64,000 bases of DNA from a bacterium (GTDB taxonomy: Bacteria > Zhuqueibacterota > QNDG01 > JAGLOF01): assembly GCA_016934955.1 (NCBI GenBank), contig JAFGRY010000042.1, positions 1-64,000 on the forward strand, written 5' to 3'. Below the pieces are notes generated by a model. That model did no database searches, was not told where the DNA came from, and worked only from the letters and a program-made list of their open reading frames with translations. The translations under genes were made by a program, and so were the position numbers. Shown piece after piece: positions 43,893 to 62,114 of the stretch (positions are counted from its first letter, which is position 1; the number at the start of each line of letters is the position of its first letter).

Positions 43893-44200
43893 GATAGTTT
43901 TCCGAATAGGAAGGATGTTTTTTGTCTTCACATCTTGTCACTCACTTTGCGTATAATGTACGGATAAAAGATATAAAAATCATTATTTTTATGTTAGAAT
44001 CGTTCTATTTCCCGGGGAGTGACCATACAATCGCGGGATCAGGGACAGGTCAACGGAGATTGTACACTACTATCCTGAATACATACAGGACACAAGAGGC
44101 GCATAAAACGGTGTCATTTCCAGAGCCCGCATAAAAAAATCCCGGAGTGCCGCTGCCCGTCGGCTTTCTCCGGGATTCTGTCACCCTGATGGTACGAGGG
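43893..44200. other. Intergenic region upstream of the glycogen cluster
   Basis: No gene. It contains the strong terminator at 44133-44177. An AT-rich segment around 43960-44010 and a weak TTGACC/TTGTAT pair with 17-bp spacing (44025-44053) could provide the promoter of the glycogen cluster. Confidence 0.5.
44133..44177 (-). terminator. Intrinsic terminator closing the phosphatase cluster
   Basis: On the minus strand AATCCCGGAG pairs with CTCCGGGATT (10-bp stem) and is followed by a T-run. It lies about 25 bp after the phosphatase stop. Confidence 0.9.
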
Positions 44201-45178: not shown

Positions 45179-45299
45179 ACAATCTCCTCTGTTATACAGT
45201 ACTGATATTCCGGCAGAGCCGGAACGGCGTTTTCTATGGACACCCGCAATCTGTCCCGCGGTAAGCAGACACACGGGCAGGTTGCGGGCGATAGCCGGG

Positions 45300-46952
45300 T
45301 TAAAAGAGTGTCGCGGGATTGAGTATCCCCTGCGGATCGAGCGCATCTTTCACTTTCCGCATTTCGGCGATGTCCTTTCCTGAAAACATCACCTGGAAAA
45401 GCGGCTTCTTGATCCTTCCAATGCCGTGTTCACCGCTCACCGTGCCGCCCATGGCAACGACCTTTTCCGCCATGTCACGATAGAGCGCCTTGGCCGTTTT
45501 CAGTTCTTCCGTGTTCCGGGGCAGAATATTCACATGCAGATGGTTCTCTCCGATATGCCCGAATACCGCGTATTCAACCCCCGCCCCGTCGAGCACGGTG
45601 CGATACAGGTTCATGACATCGTCCAGGCGCTCATCGGAAACAGCAAAGTCGGTGCCGACCTTGTGCAGACCGGGCACCTCTTTCTGACGCTGTCCGATAA
45701 GGGTATTGACCGACTCGGGCAGGGCGTGCCGGAATTCGGTGATCTGTTCCCGCTCTTTTTCCGTCATGGCGCCCCACGTCTCGTCGATGGAGGAACGGCA
45801 CCGGGTCAGGATCTCTTCCCAGGCCATCACCACCTCATCCAGATCCTGCTCCCGGCACTCCTGTTCGAAGAATACGGCGGTACCCGCCGAGTCGCTGAAG
45901 GGCGGAATATGTGATCCCGCGCCGTCAGCCTCCCGCTTGTTCCGCAGGAGATCGAGGGAAGCGCCGTCAAAATATTCCAGGGCCGAGGGATGCACACTTG
46001 CTGATCCGCCGGCCTGGGCGGTACGAACCTCTTTTACAAAATCCACCGCGTCCTTTTCCGCGGGGAAAAATGCGACCGCCGCAAAAGTGAATTCCGGTTT
46101 TTTCTGAAGGGCCAGTTCCACTTCCGTGATGATACCCAGCGTTCCTTCCGAACCGATGAAATAATCGATGAGGTCCATGGGACGGGACACATAGTAGCCG
46201 GCGGCGTTCTTGATGCCGCTCAGCGAATAATCGGGGACCGGTATCTCCAGCCCGCCCCCCTCTTCCGTCTCAACCAGGAACGGCCCTTTCTCCTGTACAT
46301 ATGCGCCGCGGCGAAGGGCGAGCACCGCGCCGCCGGCCAGCACCACCCGCAGCCCCGTCACCCACACACGGGTCTGGCCGTACTTGTAGGAGCGGCCGCC
46401 CGAGGCATTGGTGGCCACGGTGCCGCCGATGTGGGCCGATTTTTCCGTTGGATCCACGGGATAGAACCAGTGTTCAGATTCTGCGGCAAACCGTGAAAAA
46501 GCCTCTTTTTCAGTATCTGTGATACACCCGCTCAGTTCGTTCAGGGAACCGCTTTCAAGCAGCTCCCTGAGGCCGTCGAGCGATAATCCGGGCTGTACGC
46601 GCACGCACCAGCGATCGGCCTCGTCATCCCGGCGCACCCCCAGAAAGCGGCTCATGTTCTCCAGTGACAGCAAGGCACCCCCCGAAGGCACCGCACCGCC
46701 GACGATACCGGTACGGGCTCCGGAAACCGTTACCGGCGTGCCCGCGGCCGACATCGTCCGCATGAATTCGCAGACCTGTTTCTCCGACCGGGGGAAAACG
46801 ATCACATCAACTCCTGATCCGCCGATACGGGATTCATCCGTGAGATAGGGCGCGTAACTTTCGAGAATCTCAGCGGCGCCGTCGATGCGCCTGAGCGGAT
46901 CACAATCAGGGAGGTCCCGGGCCGGGACAGTGCGTATGGGATGCATGCTCAT
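45300..46952 (-). CDS. FAD-linked oxidase, GlcD/D-2-hydroxyacid dehydrogenase family
   Basis: A 550-residue flavoprotein. The N-terminal PCMH-type FAD-binding domain has VTVSGARTGIVGGAVPSGG and the GGTVATNASGGRSYKYGQT block (each a segment, about 75-205). The C-terminal domain ends with the catalytic GTVSGEHGIGRIKKP (about 505-519). Members oxidise D-lactate, glycolate, D-2-hydroxyglutarate or sugar acids. No signal peptide is present. It sits between a phytase (16 bp) and an acid phosphatase; perhaps it oxidises a hydroxyacid released later in inositol breakdown. Confidence 0.85.
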   Translation of the reverse strand: MSMHPIRTVPARDLPDCDPLRRIDGAAEILESYAPYLTDESRIGGSGVDVIVFPRSEKQVCEFMRTMSAAGTPVTVSGARTGIVGGAVPSGGALLSLENMSRFLGVRRDDEADRWCVRVQPGLSLDGLRELLESGSLNELSGCITDTEKEAFSRFAAESEHWFYPVDPTEKSAHIGGTVATNASGGRSYKYGQTRVWVTGLRVVLAGGAVLALRRGAYVQEKGPFLVETEEGGGLEIPVPDYSLSGIKNAAGYYVSRPMDLIDYFIGSEGTLGIITEVELALQKKPEFTFAAVAFFPAEKDAVDFVKEVRTAQAGGSASVHPSALEYFDGASLDLLRNKREADGAGSHIPPFSDSAGTAVFFEQECREQDLDEVVMAWEEILTRCRSSIDETWGAMTEKEREQITEFRHALPESVNTLIGQRQKEVPGLHKVGTDFAVSDERLDDVMNLYRTVLDGAGVEYAVFGHIGENHLHVNILPRNTEELKTAKALYRDMAEKVVAMGGTVSGEHGIGRIKKPLFQVMFSGKDIAEMRKVKDALDPQGILNPATLF

Positions 46953-46968: not shown

Positions 46969-48123
46969 TTACAACAGTGACGCTGTTCTGTTGGCAGTAT
47001 CCGGCAGTTTTTCAGTCCGGGGAATTCCGTCCGGAGCGACTACCAGATCCTCACCCGCGATGTCTGTCCAGCGGTAGAGCTGAAATGTCCTGTCGTCGGA
47101 CATGGCGACGAACAATCCGGCCGGGAAGGTTTCGTTCAGGACCGCGTTGGTCACATCGGAACCGTCGCTCTCCAAGGTCGATGTGTAGACGGTCTTCACC
47201 AGCGTATGCGTGTGGGGATCGTCCGGTTCCCCTTCCCGCTTGAAGATATTGAACCGGTTAGCCTGCTGATCGGACACCAGGATATAGCCGGTGCCCTCTT
47301 TGACAGTGTAGATGGAAATACCTTCGTGGTCACGGGCGAATCCCTCTGTCCCGAAGAGGGCCAGTTCTCTGTTCGCGTTCGGCGCGTCCGGGTCGGCCGC
47401 GTATTTGCGGATGCCGATGCATTCATCGGAGTAGTATACGTATCCCAGCTCGTCATCCACGGCGATGGCTTCGATCTCCTTGACGCCGCTGTAGGCACCG
47501 AATTCCCGCACTTTCACACCGCGTACCTGCCCGCCGCCGTCGTCTTCCAGGCGGTACTGCCAGAGATAGGTTCCGTCGATGGGGCCTTCCTTGCGGCCCA
47601 CAATGGCGAAAATCACCCCGTCCGAGGGGCGTTTGTAAAGAGCGATACCCATGGGCGCCCGCAGCGATTCACCCTCGAACACCGGGATCCCCCCGTTGTC
47701 GACCGGTGTCATGTCCGGGAGGCTGAATATCCGTAACGAATTGGTCAAGCGTTCCGTTGTCACCGCGATATCCGAGAAAACGCCGCCGAGGTTGAGGCCG
47801 TATTCGATGTCCACGTTATTCGGCCGCTTCAGGCCGCGTACCGTCTTTTCCTCGATGATCCGGCCGTCGAGATCGTACACATAGAGGGCGCCGTCTTCTT
47901 CCTTGTCCGTGCCGATGATCAGACTCAGGGCCGGGTCATCCGGATGCAGCCAGATAGCCGGGTCATCGGTGTCGTGGGCGGCCGGCTGTGTCACCACCGC
48001 AGGTTTCAGGGCGTGTTCGGCTATTGACGGTTTCTTTTCTCCGCAATTGACGATCAGCACCATGACAGCCGGCAGTATCACTGACGCCGCTGAAATGACT
48101 GATTTCATTTTCATAGACTTCAT
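46969..48123 (-). CDS. Beta-propeller phytase (3-phytase), predicted lipoprotein
   Basis: A 384-residue protein with a hydrophobic N-terminus ending at C27 (a lipobox-like site with Asn at -1). The body is a six-bladed beta-propeller phytase: DTDDPAIWLHPDDP (about 51-64), LIIGTDKEEDGALYVYDL, RPNNVDIEYG, IEAIAVDDELGYVYYSDE and FARDHEGISIY. Acidic residues for calcium and substrate are conserved. The enzyme releases phosphate from Ca-phytate near neutral pH, typically leaving inositol trisphosphate or less. The ATG has a GAGGAGA site. It follows the TonB-receptor gene, a linkage known for this phytase class. Confidence 0.92.
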   Translation of the reverse strand: MKSMKMKSVISAASVILPAVMVLIVNCGEKKPSIAEHALKPAVVTQPAAHDTDDPAIWLHPDDPALSLIIGTDKEEDGALYVYDLDGRIIEEKTVRGLKRPNNVDIEYGLNLGGVFSDIAVTTERLTNSLRIFSLPDMTPVDNGGIPVFEGESLRAPMGIALYKRPSDGVIFAIVGRKEGPIDGTYLWQYRLEDDGGGQVRGVKVREFGAYSGVKEIEAIAVDDELGYVYYSDECIGIRKYAADPDAPNANRELALFGTEGFARDHEGISIYTVKEGTGYILVSDQQANRFNIFKREGEPDDPHTHTLVKTVYTSTLESDGSDVTNAVLNETFPAGLFVAMSDDRTFQLYRWTDIAGEDLVVAPDGIPRTEKLPDTANRTASLL

Positions 48124-48215: not shown

Positions 48216-51017
48216 CTAGAATGAATATTTGATGCCGCCCTGTATCCACCAGGAGTAAAATTCCCTCTGCACGGGTCTGTTGCTGATTCCCATGTAGTAG
48301 CGCAGCGGTGCGTTGTTCATGTTGATCGCCTGCACGTACGCCTGGGCGCCGCCCCAGACATTCTGGGTGAGGGAGATATCCCACTGAATGTGGTTGTCAT
48401 AGTAGATATCGTAATCCTCGTTTTCACCCAGCTCCTCGAGATACCTGCCGTGATAGTTCATGCCCACACGCCCCGAAAATCCGCCTTTTTCATAGCTGAG
48501 GGCGAAGTTGGCGGTGTTCGCCGCCTGGCCGGGAATGGTAACGTCATCACGGCCGCTGATGGAGGCGTTGGACGTGGTATAGGTGTAGTTCGCGTAGATA
48601 CCGAACCCGCTCATCCATCCGGGCAGGAAGGTGAGCTGCTGCTGCCAGTTGACTTCAAAGCCCATCAGGGTCGCTTCATCACCCTGAACCGCCTGGAACA
48701 CTTCATACCCGTCATATTCGCCGTCGTCGATTTCATAGTAGGACGGGAAAATGATGTCGTTCATCTTTTTGTAGAAGAGGCCGCCGGAGAAGACACCGAT
48801 ACCCTGGAAATAGTGCTCGCCCATAAGGTCCAGGTTCGTAGCGGTTGTGGGATTCAGTTCCGGATTTCCCATTTCGATCTCTTCGTCTTCCCTGAGAACG
48901 ATGCGGTACGGTACCAGGTCCTCGTAATTGGGGCGGGCGATACCGGTGGTGAAGGCGGCCCGCAGATTGGTGTTGGCCCCGGGTTTGAAGCGCACATGCA
49001 CCATGGGCAGGAAGTAATTGTAATCGTTTTTGTTGGTGCGGGAAATGGTCTGTTCGTAATCGCCGTCTTCATTGAAGACCACTTCGTTTCCGGTATATTC
49101 AATTTTCGTGAACTCATGCCGGAAACCGCCCAGCAGCATCCATTTACCGATGTTCATTGTGGTCATGGCATAGTAGGCGTAGACATCCTCCGACGCGTCG
49201 TAGGTGGCTCCGTCGGAGTCTTCCCTGAGGTTCTCCCCTTCCAGATTATCTGTGTCTACATTATCCTGGAACCAGTCGTAGATCTTGTCCGGATCAGGAG
49301 AGAGCGGCATGGGATACTTTCCGTCCATGTAATTATCGACTTTATAGGTGTCGGTGAACCGGCTCATGAGAAGATCACCGTCGCCCTCCCAGCCGTACTC
49401 CATGATGGTTTCCGCACGGTCTTTTTTCTTCATCAGGGCCTTGGCGCCCATTTTAAAGCTGGCGTTGTTGGCTCCAATGGCATAGGGTATCTCAACGTTG
49501 AATCCGCCCACAATGTCGCGGTCAGTGGTTTTTGTGTCATCAACCTCGAAGAGATCAAGTACGTAATTGGCGGGATCATATTCATATCCGGCACCGAGGT
49601 TGGTGACCGTCCACTGCGGGTGATTCACATCAGATGCATCCAGTGTCAGGTCTGCATCCTCATCCAGTTCGAAGACGCTCGTCAGGTAACGGGGTTCCTC
49701 TTCCATAGCGTAACTGTAGGAGAAACGATAATCGAGTTTGAACTTGTCAAACTGATGGTCACCGCCGGCCATAAAATTGGTCACCGACATGTTCTGGTCC
49801 CGGTCCTTCAGTTCCGACTCGAAGGTCGCTTCAGAAATACTTGTCGCAGTAAGGTAATCGCCCTTTTCCGGGCGGGCCATGAGCCCGCGCCGCTGTTCCC
49901 GGTCCTGATATTTTGAATAGATGCCGGTCAGGTAAAGCTTGTGTCCGTCTTTCGGCAGATAATCCAGAGACCCGGTCATGGTCATGCGGTTGCGCCTGAT
50001 GCTGTAAATCCGGGTGTCGATATTGCGAAGGGCGAAAGGAATTTCCGTCTCGTCTACCGTCTCTTCGTCGCCCCATTCGATTTCATTGTTCTGTGAGCCC
50101 CGATAATGACGGTTATAACTTCCACTGAGCATGAATCCCAGGTTTTTCTTGGCCCCGAACCGGTCGCCGAAAGTGAAGCTGCCCTGGTAGATACCCTTGC
50201 TGCTCATATCGTTGTACCCGCTTCCCAGGTTGAGCGTGAAAACCCGGCCCGGGTAATCGAGAGCGGTCTTGGTTTTCAGTTCCACGGCGCCGCCGATGGC
50301 GTTGCCGTCCATATCCGGCGTGATCGCCTTGGTGACTTCAATGGACTGCAGCTGGTCCGCCGACACAACGTCCAGCGCCACGGTACGTACACCACCCTCG
50401 GGAGATGGAATCTTCTCACCGTTGATGGTCATGGAGTTGAGACGCGGGGATGTTCCCCGGACCAGGACATACCGTCCTTCACCCTGATCCCTGGTCACGG
50501 AAACACCGGAAACCCGCTGCAGCACCTCCGCGGAGTTGACATCGGGGAAACGGTGCATCTCCTCTTCATCCACCACATTCTTGATATTGGGGGCCGTCTT
50601 CTGCTGATTCAGGGCCCGCACCTGTCCCTGCCGGATGCCGTACACCGTAACGGTTTCTCCCTCCACCGCCCGTTCCTTCAGTTCAATGTCCTTTACGAGC
50701 ATCAGGGGGCCGACGGTGACTTCGCTCCTGAATTCCTCATAGCCGATATAGGTCACCGCGATGGTGTATCTGCCCGGAGGCACGTCCAGCCGGTAGACAC
50801 CGTATCGATCCGTTGCCGTACCGAGCTGGGTTCCTTCAATGGCCACATTGGCGCCGGGAAGTGTCTTGCCGCTTCCGGCATCAGTCACTTTGCCCATGAC
50901 CGTGCCTTTGGTCTGCGCGAAAAGAGCGGTTCCATTGAAAAGAATCGCCAGCACGCAGATGACAGCGATCACCGGCAGCGCATAGCCGCTGTTGGAAATC
51001 TGCATATTCTTTCTCAT
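48216..51017 (-). CDS. TonB-dependent outer-membrane receptor linked to phytase
   Basis: A 933-residue receptor: signal region (about 15-35, ILFNGTALFAQ), carboxypeptidase-regulatory-like domain (TKGTVMGKVTDAGSGKTLPG, to about 120), and plug (RFPDVNSAEVLQRVSGVSV; VRGTSPRLNSMTINGEKIP). A long barrel follows, ending in WWIQGGIKYSF with the terminal Phe. It is of the TonB-dependent-receptor type that takes up large ligands. The ATG has a strong GGGGAGGAG site. Neighbouring phytase and inositol genes suggest phytate or inositol phosphates as ligand (inferred). Confidence 0.92.
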   Translation of the reverse strand: MRKNMQISNSGYALPVIAVICVLAILFNGTALFAQTKGTVMGKVTDAGSGKTLPGANVAIEGTQLGTATDRYGVYRLDVPPGRYTIAVTYIGYEEFRSEVTVGPLMLVKDIELKERAVEGETVTVYGIRQGQVRALNQQKTAPNIKNVVDEEEMHRFPDVNSAEVLQRVSGVSVTRDQGEGRYVLVRGTSPRLNSMTINGEKIPSPEGGVRTVALDVVSADQLQSIEVTKAITPDMDGNAIGGAVELKTKTALDYPGRVFTLNLGSGYNDMSSKGIYQGSFTFGDRFGAKKNLGFMLSGSYNRHYRGSQNNEIEWGDEETVDETEIPFALRNIDTRIYSIRRNRMTMTGSLDYLPKDGHKLYLTGIYSKYQDREQRRGLMARPEKGDYLTATSISEATFESELKDRDQNMSVTNFMAGGDHQFDKFKLDYRFSYSYAMEEEPRYLTSVFELDEDADLTLDASDVNHPQWTVTNLGAGYEYDPANYVLDLFEVDDTKTTDRDIVGGFNVEIPYAIGANNASFKMGAKALMKKKDRAETIMEYGWEGDGDLLMSRFTDTYKVDNYMDGKYPMPLSPDPDKIYDWFQDNVDTDNLEGENLREDSDGATYDASEDVYAYYAMTTMNIGKWMLLGGFRHEFTKIEYTGNEVVFNEDGDYEQTISRTNKNDYNYFLPMVHVRFKPGANTNLRAAFTTGIARPNYEDLVPYRIVLREDEEIEMGNPELNPTTATNLDLMGEHYFQGIGVFSGGLFYKKMNDIIFPSYYEIDDGEYDGYEVFQAVQGDEATLMGFEVNWQQQLTFLPGWMSGFGIYANYTYTTSNASISGRDDVTIPGQAANTANFALSYEKGGFSGRVGMNYHGRYLEELGENEDYDIYYDNHIQWDISLTQNVWGGAQAYVQAINMNNAPLRYYMGISNRPVQREFYSWWIQGGIKYSF

Positions 51018-51343: not shown

Positions 51344-52240
51344 TCACATCGCATACTGTTCCCGAATCAGTGTTTCCACTTCCGCCACCGTGCGCAGAAT
51401 CGGTCCCTCCGTCTCCATTTTCAGGCTGGTGACCGCGGCGGCCCAGACAGCGGCGTCCCCTGCGGAGGCAGCGAGGCGCCTGGCCATGTAGGCGGCGATA
51501 CAGGTGTCCCCCCTGCCGCTGCGCCCGATGAGCTGTTTCGGGCGAAAGGGCGCCTCATACAGGGAGCTGCCGTCATACACTACCAGTCCGTCCCGGTGGG
51601 TCAGTACGATTTCCGAGGGACCGAATTCAGCCAGCTTTTTCACCTGCTCCTTCGGATCCGATTCGCCGGTCAGGGTTTTCCCCTCAACGATATCGGCTTT
51701 CAGCACATCGATGAGGGAGAGAATCTCCTCCTTGCCCTCCCAGGGATCGAAGACGAGGTTTTTATCTTCACCGATGATCCGGACGAACCCCTGGGCGTCC
51801 GCCACCACTTTACCCTCTTTCGCTTTTAATGCGCGGATCACTTCCACAGGCACTTCTCCCCGCACCGACGCATTGATCAGAAAGGCCCGGGCCTCCAGGG
51901 GCGTCACCTGATCGGGAGTAAACGATCCCGCGGTGGCCTCCACCGTGAGGATGCGGTTGTCCACATCGGCCGTGGGATAGTAAAGCCGCATGAGCGTCGA
52001 CTGGTTCGTGTACACAGGAAAGGGATCGACACCCAGCTTCACCAGCGCATCCACGACATGGGAATCGGCCCTGTCCAGCCGGGTGACGGCTGCGGTCCTG
52101 AGCCCCATCATGGCCGCCACATGACACCCGTAATTGAATCCGCCGCCGTCCACCACCCGGGTTCCGGCGGCGGAGACAATCGTGTCCTTTGTGTAATTAC
52201 CGATTATCACAAGATCATATTTCATCGTTTTCCCGGTCAC
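51344..52240 (-). CDS. PfkB-family carbohydrate/inositol kinase
   Basis: A 298-residue kinase of the ribokinase fold. It has an N-terminal GNYTKDTI and G-G substrate block (VDGGGFNYG), and the C-terminal signature GRSGRGDTCIAA with the catalytic Asp. A GTG start at 52240 has a good AAGGAG site 7 bases upstream; an ATG five codons later is possible. A PfkB kinase is also part of the Thermotoga inositol cluster. Substrate could be inositol or a keto-gluconate; it cannot be decided here. Last gene of the operon. Confidence 0.88.
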   Translation of the reverse strand: MTGKTMKYDLVIIGNYTKDTIVSAAGTRVVDGGGFNYGCHVAAMMGLRTAAVTRLDRADSHVVDALVKLGVDPFPVYTNQSTLMRLYYPTADVDNRILTVEATAGSFTPDQVTPLEARAFLINASVRGEVPVEVIRALKAKEGKVVADAQGFVRIIGEDKNLVFDPWEGKEEILSLIDVLKADIVEGKTLTGESDPKEQVKKLAEFGPSEIVLTHRDGLVVYDGSSLYEAPFRPKQLIGRSGRGDTCIAAYMARRLAASAGDAAVWAAAVTSLKMETEGPILRTVAEVETLIREQYAM

Positions 52241-52258: not shown

Positions 52259-53614
52259 CTAATCCCGCACTCTGGCCCGCCAGAGAGATGTGGCGAGAAT
52301 GATAGACAGTACCGACGATCCCACCCAGAAGAGAACGGGAATGCTGAAATCATAGGTGCGGACACTGTCCACAATGGTTGTTCCTTTTTCAATGAGCCAG
52401 CCGCTGATCCGCTCCTGGGTGGCTGCGGCCACATAACTGAAAATACCGATGAATCCCATAGCGGCGCCGGCCGCTTTCTTGGGAGCGATATCCACGGCAA
52501 AGAGACCGCCGAGAGCCGCCACCAGGCCGTTCAGGGAGAACCCGTAAAAGGCGAAGGCGATACTGGTCAGCCAGAGCTGATCGGCCGGGCCGAAAAAAAT
52601 GATGAGCAGGGACGATATCTCCAGCACTCCGCAGATGAGATTGACCGGGGGGCGCCGGGCGCCGAAGAGTTTATCCGAGATGAATCCGTAGGCGACCGCT
52701 CCGGCGATCCCGGCGGTGGTGCTGATGCCCAGCATGGAACCGGCCTTGACCAGGGAAAATCCCCGGGCCTCCTGCAGATAGAGAATGCCCCAGCCGTTGA
52801 TGGCGTAGCGGGTCATGTACATCATAGCGCTGGCCAGGGCCAGTACCCAGATAGCCGGCATTTTCAGGATCAGTTTCTGCGCCTGGGCCGTTTTCAGCGG
52901 TTTGCCCTCCGTATCGCTGATGGCAATGCCGTGATCATTCTTCCAGTCGGCGACTGACGGAAGGCCCAGCGTCTGCGGACGGTCACGCATGAAAATAAAC
53001 ATAACGATCGCTACAATGATACAGACCATGCCCGGGCCCCAGAACCCAAACTGCCAGCCGAACAGGCTCACCAGGGCCGCTGAACCCACAAAGGTCAGCC
53101 CTTCACCGATAGAGTGTCCCGTGCTCCAGATGCCGTAGTACCGGCCCCGCTCGCGGTTGCTGAACCAGTTGGAAAGCGAGACCACCCCGGACGGGGCGCC
53201 GAATCCCTGGAACCAGCCGTTTATCCCCCAGAGCACCGCCCACATCCAGAGATGCTCGCTGCGCCCCATGGCGAGATTGACGAGCGCGGACATGAGCACA
53301 CCGAATGATAAAAACCGGCGAATATTGGCATGATCGGCCAGAAATCCGTTGACCAGTTTACCGACCGCATACCCGTACAACAGCGCCGAACCGATGACCC
53401 CGAGCTGCTCCGCCGAAAAGATGCCGGTGTCGATGAGCGGTTTCTTGACCACTGAAAGTCCCAGCCTGCATGTGTAGGAGAATCCGTATCCGATACTGAT
53501 GCAGAGCATGATGGCGACCCGGTGACGCGCGTACATCCGGTTGATTTTTTCCTTGTCCTGAATCTGCGGTTTGTCTTCGCCCGTGGCAAAAAATCTGATC
53601 AAAGAGGTCATCAA
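52259..53614 (-). CDS. OPA-type (GlpT/UhpT-like) MFS antiporter, copy 2
   Basis: A 451-residue 12-helix transporter of the organophosphate:phosphate antiporter family. It carries family blocks GINGWFQGFGAPSG, SNRERGRYYGIWSTGHSIG and the loop DRPQTLGLPSV. The two arginines that bind phosphate in GlpT/UhpT are conserved: R50 in SYTCRLGLS and R269 in YMTRYAINGWG. This favours uptake of a phosphorylated substrate in exchange for phosphate. It is a paralogue of the next gene upstream, 42 bp away. Confidence 0.9.
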   Translation of the reverse strand: MMTSLIRFFATGEDKPQIQDKEKINRMYARHRVAIMLCISIGYGFSYTCRLGLSVVKKPLIDTGIFSAEQLGVIGSALLYGYAVGKLVNGFLADHANIRRFLSFGVLMSALVNLAMGRSEHLWMWAVLWGINGWFQGFGAPSGVVSLSNWFSNRERGRYYGIWSTGHSIGEGLTFVGSAALVSLFGWQFGFWGPGMVCIIVAIVMFIFMRDRPQTLGLPSVADWKNDHGIAISDTEGKPLKTAQAQKLILKMPAIWVLALASAMMYMTRYAINGWGILYLQEARGFSLVKAGSMLGISTTAGIAGAVAYGFISDKLFGARRPPVNLICGVLEISSLLIIFFGPADQLWLTSIAFAFYGFSLNGLVAALGGLFAVDIAPKKAAGAAMGFIGIFSYVAAATQERISGWLIEKGTTIVDSVRTYDFSIPVLFWVGSSVLSIILATSLWRARVRD

Positions 53615-53656
53615 TTCTCTCCCATTTTTCTCATTCGAAGCGTTCGAGCAGTATGA

Positions 53657-55006
53657 TCAGTCCGCCACTTTCACTTTCCAGAGCGATGTTGCCAGTATCA
53701 GCGATACAATCGAAGTCCCGACCCAGAACAGGATGGGAGCATCAAAATTATAATGGCGAACACCGTCCACAATCTGCGTTCCCGCCTGAATCAGGACGCC
53801 GCTGATCTGTTCCTGCAGAGCGGCGCCGAGATAGCTGAACACGCCGATAAATCCCATGGCCGCGCCGCTGACCCGCTTGGGCGCGATATCGATGGCGAAG
53901 AGACCGCCCAGGGCCGCCAGAATGCCGCTGAGACTGAATCCATAGACGACAAACGCCGCGGTGAGGATTACGGCATTGCCGGACGGCGCGAAGAAAATGA
54001 CCAGCAGGGCCGCCACTTCCAGGAGCCCGTAGGCAAGGGTCACCGGGGGTCTGCGGGCCCTGAAGAGCTTGTCTGAAATGAAACCGTAGGCCGCGCAGCC
54101 GGCGATACCGGCGATGGTGTTGAGTCCCAGAATGCTGCCGGCTTCCACCAGCGTGTACCCCTTTGCCTCCTGCAGGTAGAGGATGCCCCAGCTGTTGATG
54201 GCGTAGCGGGTGGCGCTCATGGTGGCGCAGGCGAGCCCCAGCACCCACATGGCCGGCATTTTTAAAATCAGCAGCTGCATTCGTGTGGTGGACATGTTAT
54301 TTGTGTCGGCCTTCACCGCAGCGCCGTGATCATTCTTCCAGTCGGCAACGGGCGGCAGCCCGTAGGTCCCGGGTCTGTCCTGAAGGGCGAGGTAGAGGCT
54401 GACCGCCACGAGAACACAGAAGAGCCCGGGTCCGATGAAACCGGCCCGCCAGCCCCAGAGAGAAACGAGGGCGGCGGTGCCCACAAAGGTCAGTCCCTCT
54501 CCAATGGAGTGGGCCGTGCTCCAGATACCGTAATAGCGGCCCCGCTCACGGTTACTGAACCAGTGCGACATGGAAACCACGCTCGATGGAGACCCGAATC
54601 CCTGAAACCAGCCGTTGACCCCCCAGAGGAGTGCCCAGACAGTGAACCCCATGATCGAGCCCATTGCGAGGTTGATCAGGGCAGAGACAAGCAGTCCGAA
54701 GGAAAAATACTTCTTGATATTGGCATGGTCGGCGAGGAAGCCGTTGGTCAGCCTTCCGAACGCGTACGTATAGAAAAAGGCGGATCCGATAACGCCGAGC
54801 TGCTCCGGGGAGAGCAATCCGGCATCGATCACCGGCTTTTTGATCACCGACATCGCCAGTCTGCAGGTATAGGTGAACCCGTATCCCAGGGTAATGGCGA
54901 TCATGACGGCCAGTCGCTTCCTTCGGAAGAGACGGTCTATCAGCGCCTTATCCGTTATCCGCGGCTTGTCCGGTCCTGTCTTGAAAAAAACGAAGGGATT
55001 ATACAT
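53657..55006 (-). CDS. OPA-type (GlpT/UhpT-like) MFS antiporter, copy 1
   Basis: A 449-residue 12-helix transporter closely similar to its neighbour across the whole length. Family blocks include GVNGWFQGFGSPSS, SNRERGRYYGIWSTAHSIG and DRPGTYGLPPVADW. Conserved phosphate-site arginines are R49 (TYTCRLAMS) and R267 (SATRYAINSWG). The membership of the OPA family, rather than a sugar/H+ symporter family, is unexpected for a plain inositol pathway and suggests inositol phosphates. It lies 15 bp after the alcohol dehydrogenase gene. Confidence 0.9.
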   Translation of the reverse strand: MYNPFVFFKTGPDKPRITDKALIDRLFRRKRLAVMIAITLGYGFTYTCRLAMSVIKKPVIDAGLLSPEQLGVIGSAFFYTYAFGRLTNGFLADHANIKKYFSFGLLVSALINLAMGSIMGFTVWALLWGVNGWFQGFGSPSSVVSMSHWFSNRERGRYYGIWSTAHSIGEGLTFVGTAALVSLWGWRAGFIGPGLFCVLVAVSLYLALQDRPGTYGLPPVADWKNDHGAAVKADTNNMSTTRMQLLILKMPAMWVLGLACATMSATRYAINSWGILYLQEAKGYTLVEAGSILGLNTIAGIAGCAAYGFISDKLFRARRPPVTLAYGLLEVAALLVIFFAPSGNAVILTAAFVVYGFSLSGILAALGGLFAIDIAPKRVSGAAMGFIGVFSYLGAALQEQISGVLIQAGTQIVDGVRHYNFDAPILFWVGTSIVSLILATSLWKVKVAD

Positions 55007-55021: not shown

Positions 55022-56071
55022 TTATGCCCAGGGGTTCAGAACCATTTTCATGGCCTGCTTCGGCAGGTTCTTCCGGCCCGCCACATCCAGTCCAACTTTT
55101 TTAAAGGCCTCTATCGCGTCTTTCAGCGGTACGGTCTCCGTGAAAAACGGCCCCATGTCCATCTTTTCCGCTTCCAGCAGGCGAATGGCCGGCAGGATGG
55201 TGTTCTGTCCGATGTAGGTGCCGAGAATCTTGATAGCGTTTCGGGTGATCTGATAGGGCGTCACCGTCGCTTCAAAACTCGAGTCCATGCCGAATGCGAG
55301 AATTTTTCCGCCCGGCGTCACATACTCCAGGGCGCTGGCCAGCTGGGTGCCCACGGCGTCGATGACGATATCCGCCTTTTTCCCGCGGGTCATATCAAGC
55401 ACCGCGGCCTGAATATCCGTGCTGTCGGGATTATAGACGGCGAATCCCATGCTTTTTGCCAGATTGAACCGCCAGGGATCGATTTCGGTCACCAGCACCC
55501 GGGTCGCGACGTTCCGGGCCATGGATGCGAACAGGTAGCCGATGGGCCCGAATCCGAGAATCACCACCAGATCCCAGGGCTGCATCTGCACCGTGTTCAT
55601 GCCGTTGAGCACGGTGCCCAGGGTTTCGACCTGGGTGGCGGTGACGTCGTCCAGGGAGTCAGGAATTTTAAAGCAGACGTCTTCGGTTGCCAGACAGTAC
55701 TGGGCGTAGCCGCCGTTTTGAAACACGCCCAGAGTGCGGTTTTTCAATTCGACGCACTGGGAACTGATACCGTTGCGGCAGAAATCGCAGAGACCGCAGC
55801 GGGAATTGTTGTCCAGGGCGATCCGGTCGCCCGGTTTCACGGCTGTTACCTCGCTGCCCACTTCCACAACCGTTCCGTGAAATTCGTGGCCAAGCACCAC
55901 ATTCGCTTTCCAGGCGTGCTTGTCCTCGACTATTTTCACATCCGAACCGCAGATGCCGCAGAGGGCCACTTTCACGATTACCTGATTCGTTTTGGTGATC
56001 CGGGGCATGGGAATCGATTCAAACTCCACTTTCCACGGTTCCTTAAAGACCATTGCTTTCATGGTTTCCAT
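55022..56071 (-). CDS. Zinc-dependent polyol (threonine/sorbitol-type) dehydrogenase
   Basis: A 349-residue medium-chain dehydrogenase. The catalytic zinc site is CGICGSD with C39 and GHEFHG; the structural zinc cluster is CGLCDFCRNGISSQC. The Rossmann loop reads ILGFGPIGY. It oxidises a secondary alcohol of a polyol or sugar acid with NAD(P). It is a second enzyme of this type in the operon, besides the IolM-like one, so it may handle another inositol isomer or a later sugar acid. Gap to the epimerase gene is 17 bp. Confidence 0.88.
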   Translation of the reverse strand: METMKAMVFKEPWKVEFESIPMPRITKTNQVIVKVALCGICGSDVKIVEDKHAWKANVVLGHEFHGTVVEVGSEVTAVKPGDRIALDNNSRCGLCDFCRNGISSQCVELKNRTLGVFQNGGYAQYCLATEDVCFKIPDSLDDVTATQVETLGTVLNGMNTVQMQPWDLVVILGFGPIGYLFASMARNVATRVLVTEIDPWRFNLAKSMGFAVYNPDSTDIQAAVLDMTRGKKADIVIDAVGTQLASALEYVTPGGKILAFGMDSSFEATVTPYQITRNAIKILGTYIGQNTILPAIRLLEAEKMDMGPFFTETVPLKDAIEAFKKVGLDVAGRKNLPKQAMKMVLNPWA

Positions 56072-56088: not shown

Positions 56089-56895
56089 TCAGGGGAACAT
56101 AATGCGTAAATGTTCCATGGTTTTTCGGGATGCTGTTTCCGGATCGGGATTTGGGAGAATCTCCGCGGAAACATATCCCTCATATCCGTTACGGTACAGC
56201 GTATCCAGTACGGCCCTGAAGTCGATGTGGCCGGCGCCGGGATACCAGCGGTTTGAATCGGCCGCATGAAAATGGAACGTGTGCCCGGCGGCGTTTTCAA
56301 TAGACTGAAAAATGGATGGTTCCTCGATATTCATATGAAAAGTGTCGAGGAGCAGTCCGATCCGGGGAAGCCCGGTCTGTTTGATGAACGCCAGTGTCTC
56401 ACCCACCGTGCAGAGCAGGTCCGTTTCATAGCGGTTGATCGGCTCGATGGCCAGGCGGACATCCGGCCGGTGCTGCACACATTCGGCGAGACACTCGGCC
56501 GTATGCGCGAGCGCCGATTCCCGGGTTCCGCCCGGGGGTATCTTCCCCCGGACCAGCCCGACAATCACGACGGCGCCGAGATCGGCGGCCAGATCCATCT
56601 GCAGCCGCATGCGGTCCACGGCTTTTTTCCGGATCGCCCCCTCGGGATGGGTGAACGAGAGCCCCTCTTCTCCGTAGGCCTGGCCGGTTCCGATGGCCGG
56701 CACCTCCATCCCCGTCTCCTCGAGCAGGCGGTCGAGAAGATCCCGGTCGAGACTGCGGGGATCCCGGACGGCCAGCTCCACTCCGTCGTATCCGCGCGCA
56801 TGAATACCGCGGATATTCTCTTCGATGGCGCCCTTGTAGGCAAGAGCGCTGAAGGACGCCGGCTGAGTGGAAAGAACGATTGCCAGTTTCATCAA
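56089..56895 (-). CDS. iolO: 5-keto-L-gluconate epimerase-like TIM-barrel protein
   Basis: A 268-residue xylose-isomerase-like TIM barrel. From memory of Thermotoga maritima TM0416 (IolO) it shares several blocks: AIGTGQAYGEEGLSFTHP, VIVGLVRG, IEPINRYETD, DTFHMNIEEPS and HFHAADSNRWYPGAGH. These contain the expected metal ligands (Glu, Asp, His, Glu). In that pathway the enzyme converts 5-keto-L-gluconate to D-tagaturonate. The start is directly adjacent to the stop of the hydrolase gene. Confidence 0.88.
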   Translation of the reverse strand: MMKLAIVLSTQPASFSALAYKGAIEENIRGIHARGYDGVELAVRDPRSLDRDLLDRLLEETGMEVPAIGTGQAYGEEGLSFTHPEGAIRKKAVDRMRLQMDLAADLGAVVIVGLVRGKIPPGGTRESALAHTAECLAECVQHRPDVRLAIEPINRYETDLLCTVGETLAFIKQTGLPRIGLLLDTFHMNIEEPSIFQSIENAAGHTFHFHAADSNRWYPGAGHIDFRAVLDTLYRNGYEGYVSAEILPNPDPETASRKTMEHLRIMFP

Positions 56896-57990
56896 TTACA
56901 GCCCCATCTTCCTGATGGCATAGATGGGACGCCATCCTTTGGTAAACGGCTCTTTCAGATAGGGCTTCATCTCCTCTTCCGTACGCATGGTGGTCTTTTC
57001 CAGGGGCGGGAATTTCCCGGCGGGATAGGCTTCAAGTATCTCGTCATGCAGCAGCGTCAGATAGGACAGTATGGCCGCGATGGTCCGCTTCGCCTTTTTT
57101 GCCGTGGCGATGGTAGGCCGGCCGACCACTCCTTCGGGAATGGACCCTATCTCCATGGGTCCGTGCCCCTGACCTTCCGACCAGCGGCAGGGCCGTCCAA
57201 AGGGATCGACCGCCTTGTCCATGTGACCATCGGGGAGGAATCCCTTGACCTTGGTTTCCTCGGCCAGGGACATCTCCACGTATTCCGGCGCCAGCAGCAG
57301 CATCACCGAGGTTTCAGCCTCGTCGGCATGGAAGAAATCATCATCCCAGTCGCCGCCCCGGTCCTTGGTGCGGAAAAATTCCCGTACGGCCCGGTGCCAG
57401 TCGATGGTGCGGAAGATGCCCGGCAGGTTCCAGGTTTTCTGCAGTTCCTGAATGGCCGCTTCCAGCAGCCAGGAGTGGCCGTGATTGTTGATGAGGATGA
57501 TCTTCCGGAACCCGTCGTTCCAGAGCCCCACCATGACATCGATGAGCATGCGCTTCAGCACCTCGTCTTCCAGGTGGATGGTGCCCGGCATGCCGATATG
57601 GTGATGGGGATGTCCGCCGTAATTCAGGGGTGTCCAGACCAGGTTGACCGGCGTGCCTTTTTTGGCGGTGTACCGGCGCACCCCTTCCAGAATCTGGGTC
57701 ACCATGAAAGTGTCCAGCGCGGTTACAGTGTGACGGCCGTGCAGTTCCGTGCATCCGATGGGCACGAATACGATGTCGTTTTTCTTCCGGTTCTCCACTA
57801 CTTTCTGCCGGATGGTGGTCTGTACATAGGTGCCCGGCTTGCCCAGCTCCGACGGCGAGGGAATGCCGTACTCGGCAAGGATGGCATCGACCTCTTTTTC
57901 CGACGCCTCCCATATCCGCTTTTTCAAACGCCCCACCGAGGTAGCTTCGAACTGGATATCGGCCCGGTTGGATTCAAGCCATGTACTCAT
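56896..57990 (-). CDS. iolN: Creatininase-family hydrolase, 3-dehydro-scyllo-inosose hydrolase (IolN-like)
   Basis: A 364-residue creatininase-fold metalloenzyme. Metal ligands are visible: E82 and H84 in GCTELHGRH, D93 in TALDTF (11 residues after E82, as in creatininase), H127/H129 in GGHPHH and H170 in INNHGHS. In the Thermotoga pathway this protein opens the inositol ring of the diketo intermediate to give 5-keto-L-gluconate. The ATG at 57990 has an AAAGGAG site. Context between the IolM- and IolO-like genes supports the name. Confidence 0.88.
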   Translation of the reverse strand: MSTWLESNRADIQFEATSVGRLKKRIWEASEKEVDAILAEYGIPSPSELGKPGTYVQTTIRQKVVENRKKNDIVFVPIGCTELHGRHTVTALDTFMVTQILEGVRRYTAKKGTPVNLVWTPLNYGGHPHHHIGMPGTIHLEDEVLKRMLIDVMVGLWNDGFRKIILINNHGHSWLLEAAIQELQKTWNLPGIFRTIDWHRAVREFFRTKDRGGDWDDDFFHADEAETSVMLLLAPEYVEMSLAEETKVKGFLPDGHMDKAVDPFGRPCRWSEGQGHGPMEIGSIPEGVVGRPTIATAKKAKRTIAAILSYLTLLHDEILEAYPAGKFPPLEKTTMRTEEEMKPYLKEPFTKGWRPIYAIRKMGL

Positions 57991-58033
57991 TATGATACTC
58001 CTTTCTAATCGCACCGGTTCGTCCCGGTACTCG

Positions 58034-59215
58034 TTACGGTATGACAGTTATTTTCACTTCTTCCCGGTCGGTCTGCAACATGACCAGGTTCTCTTTGACC
58101 TCATCCAGGCCGATCTTCTTGGTGATGAGAGCTGATACATCCATGCCGGCGCTCATGGCGCTGATGACCCGGGGAAAGGTGCCGTGACCTGAATGTCCCT
58201 GGGCGCCGACCACCCGGGCGCGTCGCACCTGGAACACCTCTCCGTTGAGCGGAATGCGGTCATCGGCCCTGGCGACGATCACCACCGTGGCGTTGAGGGT
58301 CCGGCCCTCCCAGATCACTTTCTCCACATCGTTCCAGACGACGCTGGGCAGGCCCGTGGCTTCCAGGATGAGATCCGCGCCCATCCCTTTTGTGATCTCG
58401 AGCACCGCCTCCGCGGTTCTGGTGCTCGTGGGATCGAAGGTGTGGGTGGCGCCCATGTTCTCCGCCATCTTCCTTCGGGATGCCGATGGTTCCGAAAGGA
58501 TGACCGCCGTGGCCCCGGCCCGGCGCAGGATCGCGCAGGCGGCGATGCCCACGGGACCGCCGCCGAGAATCAGCACATTGTCCCCCGGACGAATCCCGCC
58601 GCCGCGCTCGATGACCGCATTATAGGCCACCGATGTCGGTTCGACCAGGCTGCCCAGTTCCCACATCTTCCCCTCTCCGTAGCGCTCTCGCAAATCCTCC
58701 AGGCTCCAGAGGTAGCGGGCATCCATTTTAATATATTTCGCATAGGCGCCGTCTACGGAAAATCCGATCTCCTGCAGATTTTCACAGTGGTTGGGAAACC
58801 CGTCGGCGCAGGGACGGCAGGCCGCGCACCAGACCATCTCTTCACTGCAGACCGGTTCGCCTTTCTCATAAGGTTTGCCGGTACGCTTGTTCAGGGCCGC
58901 GGACCCGGCTTCCACCACCGCTCCGGAAAATTCATGGCCCAGGGTACAGGGAAAAGCGGTAAGACCGGGATAGTAGATGTAGCCGTCGGTATCGGTCTGC
59001 AGCATGTGCACATCGCTGCCGCAGACACCGCAGGCCTTTACTTCGATCAGCACTTCGCTGGGACCGGGAACCGGCACCTCCTTTTCCACGATCTCGATAC
59101 GGGGATTCCGCCATACCTTGCTCCCCAGATAGGTGAGTTTCCCCTCGACATCCTTGGCCCCGAGGGTGAATTCCGGTCTTGGATCCCAATCGGCAAAATT
59201 ACATACAGTTTTCAT
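58034..59215 (-). CDS. iolM: scyllo-inosose 3-dehydrogenase-like zinc enzyme (IolM-like)
   Basis: A 393-residue medium-chain dehydrogenase, longer than ordinary polyol dehydrogenases. Catalytic zinc: C65 in CGVCGSD, H94-E95 in LGHEFSG. Structural zinc: C130, C133, C136, C144. NAD loop LGGGPVG. The length and N-terminal extension fit the Thermotoga IolM, which oxidises 2-keto-inositol to the diketone. The ATG at 59215 has an AAAGGA site. It lies between iolG- and iolN-like genes. Confidence 0.88.
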   Translation of the reverse strand: MKTVCNFADWDPRPEFTLGAKDVEGKLTYLGSKVWRNPRIEIVEKEVPVPGPSEVLIEVKACGVCGSDVHMLQTDTDGYIYYPGLTAFPCTLGHEFSGAVVEAGSAALNKRTGKPYEKGEPVCSEEMVWCAACRPCADGFPNHCENLQEIGFSVDGAYAKYIKMDARYLWSLEDLRERYGEGKMWELGSLVEPTSVAYNAVIERGGGIRPGDNVLILGGGPVGIAACAILRRAGATAVILSEPSASRRKMAENMGATHTFDPTSTRTAEAVLEITKGMGADLILEATGLPSVVWNDVEKVIWEGRTLNATVVIVARADDRIPLNGEVFQVRRARVVGAQGHSGHGTFPRVISAMSAGMDVSALITKKIGLDEVKENLVMLQTDREEVKITVIP

Positions 59216-59268
59216 GCCCACTTCCTTTCGCTATACTATTCCGCGGGGAGCTGAATCCCGCGGTACGA

Positions 59269-60279
59269 TTAATAATCCGCCACCAGTACGATGCTGTTCC
59301 GGTGCAGAGAATCGGTGGCCGCGGCCGCAATCTGCAGGCCGGCGATCCCGTCATCTATGGTGATCATGGGTTCCTTGTCGTGAATCAGGTTCTCGAGAAA
59401 GTCATTCAGCTGATTAACGTAGGCATCACCGAACCGTTCGGGAAAATAGGGAACGACATCATGGGTAACGCCGGCCTTGGTCATGATATTGATGGCGGTA
59501 TCTCTGAGATATCCTGCCTGCACGGTACCCTCGGTACCCAGCACCTCCGCGCGGATATCATACCCGTAGACCCCGTTCCGGCTGATATCGATTTCTCCCA
59601 GTCTCCCGTTCTCGAAGGTCATTACCATGATCACGTTGTCGGTATCATGGACCTCCGCGATCTCCGGGTACGCCAGAATGCCGCCCACGGCGTAGACGCT
59701 CCTGACCTCCCCCATGTACCAGCGTGCGATGTCTATATCGTGAATGGCCATATCGAGAATCTGGCCGCCGCTGTTCTCCGGGGTCAGGTATTCCAGGCTC
59801 GGCCGGTAGGGATCCCGGGATGAGCCCCGGAAGACACAGGGGGTGCCGATGGTGCCCGCATCGATTTCCCGTTTTGCCGCGGCAAAGGCCTTGTCGAAGC
59901 GGCGCATATATCCCTGCTGATAAAATATGCCGGTTTTCTCAATAACGGACTTCATCTCCCGGGCATCAGCCAGATCGAGGGTCATGGGTTTTTCACAGAA
60001 GACCGGTTTTCCTTTTTCGGCCGCGTCTACGACGATTTCCCGGTGATTTACCGTTGTTGCGGTGACAATCACCGCATCGAGACTCAGGTCATCGTTGAGG
60101 TCTTGATGCCCCGTGTACCAGTTAGGCACATCGAATTTCTCCGCGCAGGTTTTCGCCCGTTCCGGGATCAGGTCAGCCACAGCCGCAAGATTGGCCCCCG
60201 GCACCCGTGTGCTGAGGAATTCCGCGTACATCGAACCCAGACGGCCGGTTCCGATGAGCCCCACATTGATTTTTTTCAT
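59269..60279 (-). CDS. iolG: myo-Inositol 2-dehydrogenase-like Gfo/Idh/MocA enzyme
   Basis: A 336-residue NAD-dependent dehydrogenase. Rossmann motif GTGRLG (10-15), EKP with catalytic K97, and the Asp-His pair D176/H180 in LDMAIHDIDIARW match inositol dehydrogenases. The product would be 2-keto-myo-inositol (scyllo-inosose). It is the first pathway enzyme after the regulator and HAD genes, with an AAAAGGA site. Confidence 0.9.
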   Translation of the reverse strand: MKKINVGLIGTGRLGSMYAEFLSTRVPGANLAAVADLIPERAKTCAEKFDVPNWYTGHQDLNDDLSLDAVIVTATTVNHREIVVDAAEKGKPVFCEKPMTLDLADAREMKSVIEKTGIFYQQGYMRRFDKAFAAAKREIDAGTIGTPCVFRGSSRDPYRPSLEYLTPENSGGQILDMAIHDIDIARWYMGEVRSVYAVGGILAYPEIAEVHDTDNVIMVMTFENGRLGEIDISRNGVYGYDIRAEVLGTEGTVQAGYLRDTAINIMTKAGVTHDVVPYFPERFGDAYVNQLNDFLENLIHDKEPMITIDDGIAGLQIAAAATDSLHRNSIVLVADY

Positions 60280-60324: not shown

Positions 60325-60999
60325 TTACCAGCCCATCCGCTCAAAAAGAGACTCGAGATACCCCGCCCCGCCGGAATTGGCCTGGGGAAAGAAAATACCG
60401 GTCCATCCGTACGCCCGGCAGCGTACGATATTTTCAAACCGGTCATCGATGAACACCGTGCCGCCGTCCAGTCTTCCCAGCGCACCCGTGACGGCCCTGA
60501 ACATTTCAAACCCCGGGCTGTCCTTGACCGCACCCACCCGGCTGGAGGAGATGACCCTCTCCTCCGGGAAAAAGCGGTGAAGTCCGGCTTTCTGCATCTG
60601 TTTGCGAATCCAGAATTCATTGTTGTTGGAACAGATAGCCATGGGAATGCCCCGTTCCGCGACGGACTCAAGCAGGGCGGTCATTCCCGCCACCGGGCAT
60701 ATAAAATCATCGGTCATGGCAATGAGCTCATCGATTGAGAGGGACACCGGAAAACGGGAGCGGAACCGTTCCCAGTACTGCCGTTCCAGCGCTTCGGGTG
60801 TGTCCGTTTCGCTGCAGGGCCGAAGCTCGAATGCCCGCCAGAGAGCCGGGGCGAAGTCAGCCACTTCCTTCATATCGAGTCCGCAGACCGCCGCCACGCT
60901 CTTTTCCGGATCCAGCAGCAGGTGCTCCCAGACGTCCCGGACAAGCACACCGCCGATATCGAATACAACCGCCCCTATCGATGTCGTGTGAGGGTTCAT
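60325..60999 (-). CDS. HAD-family phosphatase (YihX-like)
   Basis: A 224-residue HAD hydrolase. Motif I is VVFDIGGVLV (D-x-G type as in YihX), motif II reads AICSNNNEF, Lys region VGAVKDSPG, and motif IV FIDDRFENI. It probably hydrolyses a small phosphate ester in the cytoplasm. In this operon, an inositol or sugar-acid monophosphate imported by the OPA antiporters is a reasonable substrate (inferred). The AAGGAG site lies inside the end of the lacI gene, so the two are coupled. Confidence 0.85.
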   Translation of the reverse strand: MNPHTTSIGAVVFDIGGVLVRDVWEHLLLDPEKSVAAVCGLDMKEVADFAPALWRAFELRPCSETDTPEALERQYWERFRSRFPVSLSIDELIAMTDDFICPVAGMTALLESVAERGIPMAICSNNNEFWIRKQMQKAGLHRFFPEERVISSSRVGAVKDSPGFEMFRAVTGALGRLDGGTVFIDDRFENIVRCRAYGWTGIFFPQANSGGAGYLESLFERMGW

Positions 61000-61001
61000 C
61001 A

Positions 61002-62003
61002 TCACTCCTTCAGGTGGGCTTCAAGAACGATCTGATGGGGCGCCCTTTGGGGATTATTGATCGTATCGATAAGCACCTCAACCACTTTATCTCCCATGGT
61101 CTCCACCGGAAGCACCATGTGAGAGAGAGATTTTGAGGAAAACGGGTTCACTTCACCGTCACCGATAAAGGTCAGATCGATGTCTTCTGGTATTCTGACA
61201 CCGACTTCCGCGGCTGCCTTGTACACTCCCAGGGCCACGGAAAAACCGGCGGTGAAAATGATCTCCGGCAGCCGCCCGGACCGGTAGATCCGCATAAATC
61301 CTTCGTACCCGTGAGACTTGCTGAATCCGCCCTCGATAAGCCATTCAGGTTCGATGGCGAGCCCATGATCATGCATGGCGTCTCTGAACCCCTGCAGCCG
61401 GTCCCGGCCCACGGGATTGGTTGCATAACAGGCGAGATTGGCGATGTGTGAATACCCTTTCTCGATGGCGTGCTCGACGGTGCGGTACGCGGCCATGCGG
61501 TCATCGACCCGTACGCAGCTGACACCGGAAATATCGAGGATACGGTCGAACATCACCATCGGAATGCCCATGCGCGTCACCTTTTCGAACGCCGAGGGAG
61601 CGCTGGTGTTTTCAGTCACCGATACCAGCAGCCCGTCAACACGCATGGCCATCAGTGATTCGATGTGCTGCGCTTCCCGTTTCGGATCTTCATAGGAGAC
61701 CGCCAGCAGGACTTCATATCCGTTCCGGTACATGGCGTCATAAATCGCCTTGATAATAGTGGGATAGAAATAATCGGTGATTTTGGGGACCACCAGCCCG
61801 ATAATGTGCGACCGTCTGGACGAGAGGGAGCGGGCCATCATGTTGGGCGAATAACCGCGCTCTTCAGCGAGATCCCTGACCCGCTTTTTGGTCGCGGACG
61901 AAATATCCGGATGATCCCGCAGAGCCTTGGAAACGGTGACTCTGGATACACCAAGCTCGACGGCCAGATCATTCAGCGTTATCTGAGAGGGTTTCTTCAT
62001 CAT
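61002..62003 (-). CDS. LacI-family transcriptional repressor
   Basis: A 333-residue regulator. The N-terminal helix-turn-helix ITLNDLAVELGVSRVTVSKAL (segment, about 8-28) and hinge ARSLSSRRSHIIGLVVP lead to a periplasmic-binding-like sensor domain with VDGLLVS and VRVDDR. The start at 62003 (AGGGG site) fits normal length; a longer frame would begin inside the -10 element. It probably represses its own operon and responds to inositol or an intermediate. Confidence 0.92.
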   Translation of the reverse strand: MMKKPSQITLNDLAVELGVSRVTVSKALRDHPDISSATKKRVRDLAEERGYSPNMMARSLSSRRSHIIGLVVPKITDYFYPTIIKAIYDAMYRNGYEVLLAVSYEDPKREAQHIESLMAMRVDGLLVSVTENTSAPSAFEKVTRMGIPMVMFDRILDISGVSCVRVDDRMAAYRTVEHAIEKGYSHIANLACYATNPVGRDRLQGFRDAMHDHGLAIEPEWLIEGGFSKSHGYEGFMRIYRSGRLPEIIFTAGFSVALGVYKAAAEVGVRIPEDIDLTFIGDGEVNPFSSKSLSHMVLPVETMGDKVVEVLIDTINNPQRAPHQIVLEAHLKE

Positions 62004-62063
62004 ATACGCCCCTGTCAACGGTCTGATCTGCCTGATGAGGTGATAATTAAACGATGACTTAAT

Positions 62064-62084
62064 CGGTAACTTTAACGGTAACTT
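62064..62084. promoter_or_regulatory. Direct repeat at the lacI transcription start (candidate operator)
   Basis: CGGTAACTT occurs twice (62064-62072 and 62076-62084), 12 bases apart, across the expected +1 and just below the -10. Such a position would let a bound repressor block initiation. Confidence 0.5.
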
Positions 62085-62085
62085 C

Positions 62086-62114
62086 ATGATAAAAAAACAT
62101 TCCTACATTGTCAA
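62086..62114 (-). promoter_or_regulatory. Sigma-70-type promoter of the inositol operon
   Basis: On the minus strand a perfect -35 TTGACA and -10 TATCAT are separated by exactly 17 bases. The start point is expected near 62079, giving a leader of about 76 bases before the lacI ATG. Confidence 0.8.

Follow-up and report, generated by a model that had tools for sequence, protein, structure and literature searches.

What do two tandem transporters of the GlpT/UhpT kind carry when their genes lie within an operon for inositol degradation? The question arises in the window (the whole 64,000-nucleotide stretch of DNA analysed here), which encodes the following pair.

53657 to 55006, minus strand: OPA1, a 449-aa GlpT/UhpT-like MFS protein
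52259 to 53614, minus strand: OPA2, a 451-aa paralogue of OPA1

Both ORFs are intact and open at these coordinates, and are separated by a gap of 42 bp. The start of OPA2 is listed as TTG at 53614, with an ATG directly after it at 53611. The two proteins share 64–65% identity, and a search of the genome for further transporters of this type found none beyond these two. In NCBIfam they match UhpC, PgtP, and GlpT best (E 1e-66 to 1e-82), with every score against the GlpT, UhpT, PgtP, and UhpC models falling below the curated cut-off. Among solved structures, OPA1 is closest to GlpT (1pw4; E 1.5e-51) and human G6PT/SLC37A4, and both copies are ~29% identical to GlpT. ORFs, profiles, and solved relatives all agree with the initial annotation, which described two tandem GlpT/UhpT-like paralogues.

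The same annotation placed the pair in an inositol operon, and IolM, IolN, and IolO indeed score above their curated cut-offs. The operon extends from ~62.1 to 44.15 kb and lies entirely on the minus strand from the regulator (62087) through the metallophosphatase (44201). Its features, other than the pair, are as follows.

62086 to 62114, minus strand: sigma70-like promoter TTGACA-17-TATCAT, an 11/12 match and the best site, though the number of sites is at chance level
61002 to 62087, minus strand: LacI-type regulator, named by eye from sequence
60325 to 61005, minus strand: HAD-family hydrolase, with weak profile matches only
59269 to 60279, minus strand: IolG-like inositol 2-dehydrogenase, 335 bits against a cut-off of 355
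58034 to 59221, minus strand: IolM, scyllo-inosose 3-dehydrogenase, 499 bits against a cut-off of 450
56896 to 58014, minus strand: IolN, 3-dehydro-scyllo-inosose hydrolase, 321 bits against a cut-off of 245
56089 to 56895, minus strand: IolO, 5-keto-L-gluconate epimerase, 325 bits against a cut-off of 300
55022 to 56071, minus strand: zinc alcohol-dehydrogenase-type oxidoreductase by profiles, a candidate for the reduction after IolO
51344 to 52240, minus strand: PfkB/ribokinase-family protein, a TM0415-like PPi-type inositol kinase, 18 bp 3′ of OPA2
48216 to 51017, minus strand: TonB-dependent receptor for outer-membrane uptake, by profile match
46969 to 48123, minus strand: beta-propeller phytase, PF02333, 160 bits against a cut-off of 21
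45300 to 46952, minus strand: FAD-linked oxidase, by profile match
44201 to 45346, minus strand: calcineurin-like metallophosphatase, its true start probably internal, with a signal peptide by eye
44131 to 44182 (approximate), minus strand: hairpin followed by TTTTTTT (z −2.4), just 3′ of the metallophosphatase, probably the operon end

As judged from their sequences, IolG, IolM, IolN, and IolO constitute a Thermotoga-type inositol pathway, and the protein at 46969–48123 is a beta-propeller phytase. Its residues 47–344 align with the solved phytase 3amr, and an N-terminal signal and a possible lipobox were recognised by eye. The phytase, the TonB receptor, and the metallophosphatase were all absent from the initial annotation, and the first two probably make the "inositol operon" an operon for phytate use. 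The OPA proteins were the only inner-membrane transporters recognised there. A palindromic operator common to sites along the operon was sought and not found. Immediately upstream of the operon, at 62191–64000, are genes that by eye resemble those for electron-transfer flavoproteins and include a ferredoxin domain.

We consider it reasonably probable that OPA1 and OPA2 serve a phytate-eating operon as antiporters of the inner membrane, exchanging internal phosphate for incoming lower inositol phosphates, of which monophosphates are the likeliest. Sequence analysis shows which proteins are present, their predicted fold, the arginines, and the conserved linkage; direction, substrate, and antiport are what we infer. 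The TonB receptor and phytase would act outside the inner membrane, converting phytate to lower inositol phosphates, which the metallophosphatase would trim further. OPA1 and OPA2 would carry the remaining ester inward, where an inositol monophosphatase, or else the PPi-type kinase in reverse, would take off its last phosphate, and the free inositol would be degraded by IolG, IolM, IolN, and IolO.

The choice of substrate draws on conserved neighbourhoods. We gathered 71 loci, mostly from metagenome-assembled genomes, by similarity to OPA1 alone, so that their other genes count as independent evidence. Loci of KSB1, Calditrichota, and Neomarinimicrobiota contain all or most of the genes for IolG, IolM, IolN, IolO, the dehydrogenase, OPA, the kinase, the phytase, and the TonB receptor. 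In Povalibacter, Luteimonas, and other gammaproteobacteria, OPA adjoins IolB, IolC, IolD, IolE, and an aldehyde dehydrogenase, which belong to the unrelated Bacillus-type route. Phytase, OPA, and inositol monophosphatase genes are found in this order on one strand in locus L131, and an inositol monophosphatase gene is located 3′ of OPA in L021 and L010. In Hydrogenedentota, the kinase gene is immediately 3′ of OPA, in genomes without a beta-propeller phytase match. The linked enzymes would act on both sides of the membrane, phytase externally and inositol monophosphatase or PPi kinase internally, and two inositol pathways are linked as well; lower inositol phosphates are the substrate class that fits this best. 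A transport site for one phosphate suggests monophosphates as the substrate, and is also compatible with di- or trisphosphates. In several KSB1-type loci, the operon that contains OPA also encodes an ABC importer whose binding protein is of the sugar type, and the OPA cargo is therefore probably something other than free inositol. Some IolN loci are without OPA.

Co-occurrence was counted genome by genome. In 82 genomes of the home phylum, counted irrespective of genome relatedness, an OPA of this branch was present in 11 of the 15 genomes with IolN above the cut-off versus 9 of the 67 without (Fisher p 1e-5), and 9 of the 20 OPA genomes were without IolN. The presence of phytase showed no significant correlation with that of OPA across these 82 genomes (p 0.26); the phytase gene was ≤9 kb from OPA in 6 of the 9 genomes having both. 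Among 117 genomes of the gammaproteobacterial order of Povalibacter, again irrespective of relatedness, OPA and phytase co-occur (6 joint genomes, p 8e-4). In each of these six genomes the two genes are 24–228 bp apart and Bacillus-type IolD is present; five of the six have IolD on the same contig. The OPA-linked gammaproteobacterial phytases (G082, G091, G166, G184, G194, and G171) are double-domain proteins of ~700 residues.

In a tree of 72 rows, including GlpT, UhpT, and UhpC references, OPA1 and OPA2 are located within one branch of 61 rows (support 100/100) that is far from all three references; the outer order of the tree is unsure because the reference branches are long. Each copy clusters with the matching copy from other tandem loci, which indicates that the duplication predates these lineages. 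The OPA1 and OPA2 sub-branches comprise mostly phytase/inositol contexts. Some members of the branch adjoin a glycerophosphodiesterase gene, nuclease/phospholipase-like genes, or nothing informative. The branch as a whole is therefore not inositol-specific, and the inositol phosphate claim is restricted to its phytase/inositol-linked members.

Such neighbours raise the alternative of a pair that takes up glycerol-3-phosphate or some other common phosphate ester, its placement in the inositol operon reflecting general phosphate scavenging. The members that adjoin glycerophosphodiesterase and exo/endo-phosphatase-type genes (L115, L123, L026, L033, and L107) speak for it, as does the standing of GlpT as the nearest characterised solved relative. 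However, the glycerophosphodiesterase-linked members form sub-branches separate from the mostly phytase/inositol ones of OPA1 and OPA2, and no glycerol-3-phosphate gene was recognised within the operon. We regard this alternative as unlikely.

Other members of the branch have contexts of their own. In L115, L123, L026, and L033, OPA adjoins glycerophosphodiesterase and exo/endo-phosphatase genes, which are fused into one protein in L026, and these loci may represent a variant of the system for glycerophosphodiesters or phosphoinositides. Locus L106 (genome G021) contains tandem OPA genes of both lineages without recognised inositol or phytase genes, and related loci contain PhzF-like and ABC-2 transporter genes. 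In the Shewanella and Vibrio loci L058 and L066, a solute-binding protein and a histidine kinase are adjacent, resembling a PgtABC-like regulatory set, and the TM5 histidine is replaced by R. DUF6454 proteins are encoded beside OPA genes of the branch in L116 and L037, which represent two phyla.

The transport site was mapped by aligning OPA1, OPA2, and their relatives to E. coli GlpT. GlpT R45 corresponds to R49 in OPA1 and R50 in OPA2, and GlpT R269 to R267 and R269, respectively, which exactly matches the phosphate-site arginines named in the initial annotation. Both are near-invariant family-wide, in GlpT, UhpT, UhpC, and even in relatives adjoining glycerophosphodiesterases. We consequently rejected them as a pointer to a specific substrate, which cannot be named from residues that occur throughout the OPA family. 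The uptake of an inositol phosphate or a related ester was first proposed on the strength of these arginines; it gains strong independent support from the conserved context, while the arginines themselves do not discriminate.

The pair resembles GlpT, UhpT, UhpC, PgtP, and human SLC37A4 in fold, in its TM1 and TM7 arginines, in its TM5 histidine, and in its cavity tyrosines; the GlpT cavity residues retained are R45, H165, R269, Y38, Y42, and Y393. Further mapped residues are R85 (GlpT K80), H166, E170, and S264 (GlpT Y266) in OPA1, and K86, H167, and E171 in OPA2, whose residues are those typical of the branch. A recent structural paper describes a TM1 "RK" motif as a hallmark of the OPA family (PMC13046256). 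Unlike GlpT-type members, OPA1 and OPA2 have "RL" at this motif, the R being present and the K, which is missing branch-wide, being replaced by L in both. They also differ at the salt-bridge partner D274, which is S or G in the pair and mostly S, N, or G in the branch, at E299, which is lost in the branch and is T in the pair, and at G169, where a glutamate gained in the branch (E170/E171 in the pair) stands close to the TM5 histidine. Because the RK lysine is missing, we refer to an OPA-like branch and not to standard OPA members. Phosphate antiport is suggested by OPA family kinship, a case weakened by the loss of this lysine, and with the salt-bridge partner missing as well it cannot be presumed.

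An AlphaFold2 model built on 39 aligned sequences from the window and the loci has a pLDDT of 91.6 and a 12-helix MFS fold nearest to OPA structures. Its top 17 PDB fold matches are all GlpT, SLC37A4, or SLC37A2, some holding glucose-6-phosphate or glucosamine-6-phosphate, and its TM-score to 1pw4 is 0.76–0.78. DgoT and sialin are likewise among the fold matches. These two, together with the loss of the RK lysine, D274, and E299 and the gain of the TM5 glutamate near the histidine, would suit a pair that carries a non-phosphorylated organic acid or cyclitol (e.g. keto-gluconate), like related anion:cation symporters. This is distinctly improbable given that the pair retains both arginines, the basic residue of TM2, and the histidine of TM5, that OPA proteins take all of the top 17 matches, that the linked enzymes make or cut phosphate esters, and that the two inositol pathways have different acids.

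Does each copy have its own substrate? A comparison of residues between the copies, as the initial annotation had suggested, did not find their differences concentrated in the cavity, with 8 of the 38 mapped positions differing, which is below average. The notable cavity differences of OPA1 from OPA2 are K80R and Y266S (GlpT numbering); R is found at the first position in OPA1 and its orthologues, and S at the second in most of them. It is plausible from these substitutions that OPA1 diverged in specificity after duplication. A division of labour in which only one copy transports the ester, while its paralogue would be a UhpC-like sensor for it, is very improbable. Such a division would suit the UhpC profile being the best for both copies, though far below its cut-off, and the cavity changes peculiar to OPA1. 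Against it, neither UhpA nor UhpB partners were recognised in the operon, which has a LacI-type regulator instead, and single-copy OPA loci exist (L007, L008, and L118).

The best alignment of the PfkB protein is with TM0415 of Thermotoga maritima, which has been demonstrated to be a PPi-dependent inositol kinase (PMC5931981). TM0415 residues K171, F221, R229, R232, and M266 correspond to K181, F232, R240, R243, and M275 in the window kinase, so that all five PPi signature residues are present, and the three basic ones are retained in all 18 OPA-linked kinase homologues. The acceptor-site pattern of the window kinase, L/L/S, is identical to that of TM0415 homologue No. 49 from Levilinea saccharolytica, which used inositol and formed three inositol monophosphates in a screen with KDG among the acceptors (PMC5931981). 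A PPi-using KDG kinase is known from Luteolibacter (PMC12632266). A KDG-kinase reading of the window protein is less likely given its inositol-contacting D, Q, and R and the L/L/S pattern shared with No. 49, and it is also disfavoured by kinase genes adjoining OPA in loci with the Bacillus-type pathway.

The discoverers of PPi-dependent inositol kinases left the true acceptor open (PMC5931981). We tentatively raise the possibility, which we hold to be doubtful, that the window kinase works in reverse on imported inositol monophosphate (InsP + Pi → inositol + PPi), saving the ester bond as PPi to be spent by a membrane pyrophosphatase. In its favour, TM0415 binds inositol only weakly (Km 12 mM), No. 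49 gave mixed products, and PPi-acetate kinase offers a precedent (PMC5931981); a membrane pyrophosphatase is also encoded in this genome. On the other hand, the same kinase is present in inositol loci without OPA, and an inositol monophosphatase-family gene is found elsewhere in this genome. PPi kinase and inositol monophosphatase may be mutually exclusive, in numbers too small for a claim.

The operon can be set beside known systems. It resembles T. maritima TM0411–TM0416 in its IolM–IolN–IolO pathway enzymes and TM0415-like PPi-type kinase (PMC5931981). The reported inositol importer of T. maritima is InoEFGK (PMC3750489), and, unlike the T. maritima operon, the one in the window also encodes the OPA pair together with a TonB receptor, a phytase, and a phosphatase. 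It also differs from GlpT and UhpT systems in that the genomic context of the pair is phytate and inositol instead of glycerol or hexose phosphate. Beta-propeller phytase loci with an adjacent TonB receptor are already known; here such genes are combined with an OPA pair for the inner membrane and with a complete inositol pathway. We found no mention of this combination, and no earlier report of an OPA-family bacterial inositol-phosphate importer, in the open-licence literature searched. To our knowledge, there is no characterised bacterial inositol phosphate transporter.

Phytate is a major organic phosphorus store. If the proposed role is correct, a dedicated importer would link phytase to inositol catabolism, giving phytate use a carbon route besides the phosphate route, and the OPA family would gain a new substrate class. 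PPi-dependent inositol kinases would gain a natural setting, and, if the kinase does run in reverse, transporter and kinase together would form an energy-conserving module for inositol-phosphate uptake.
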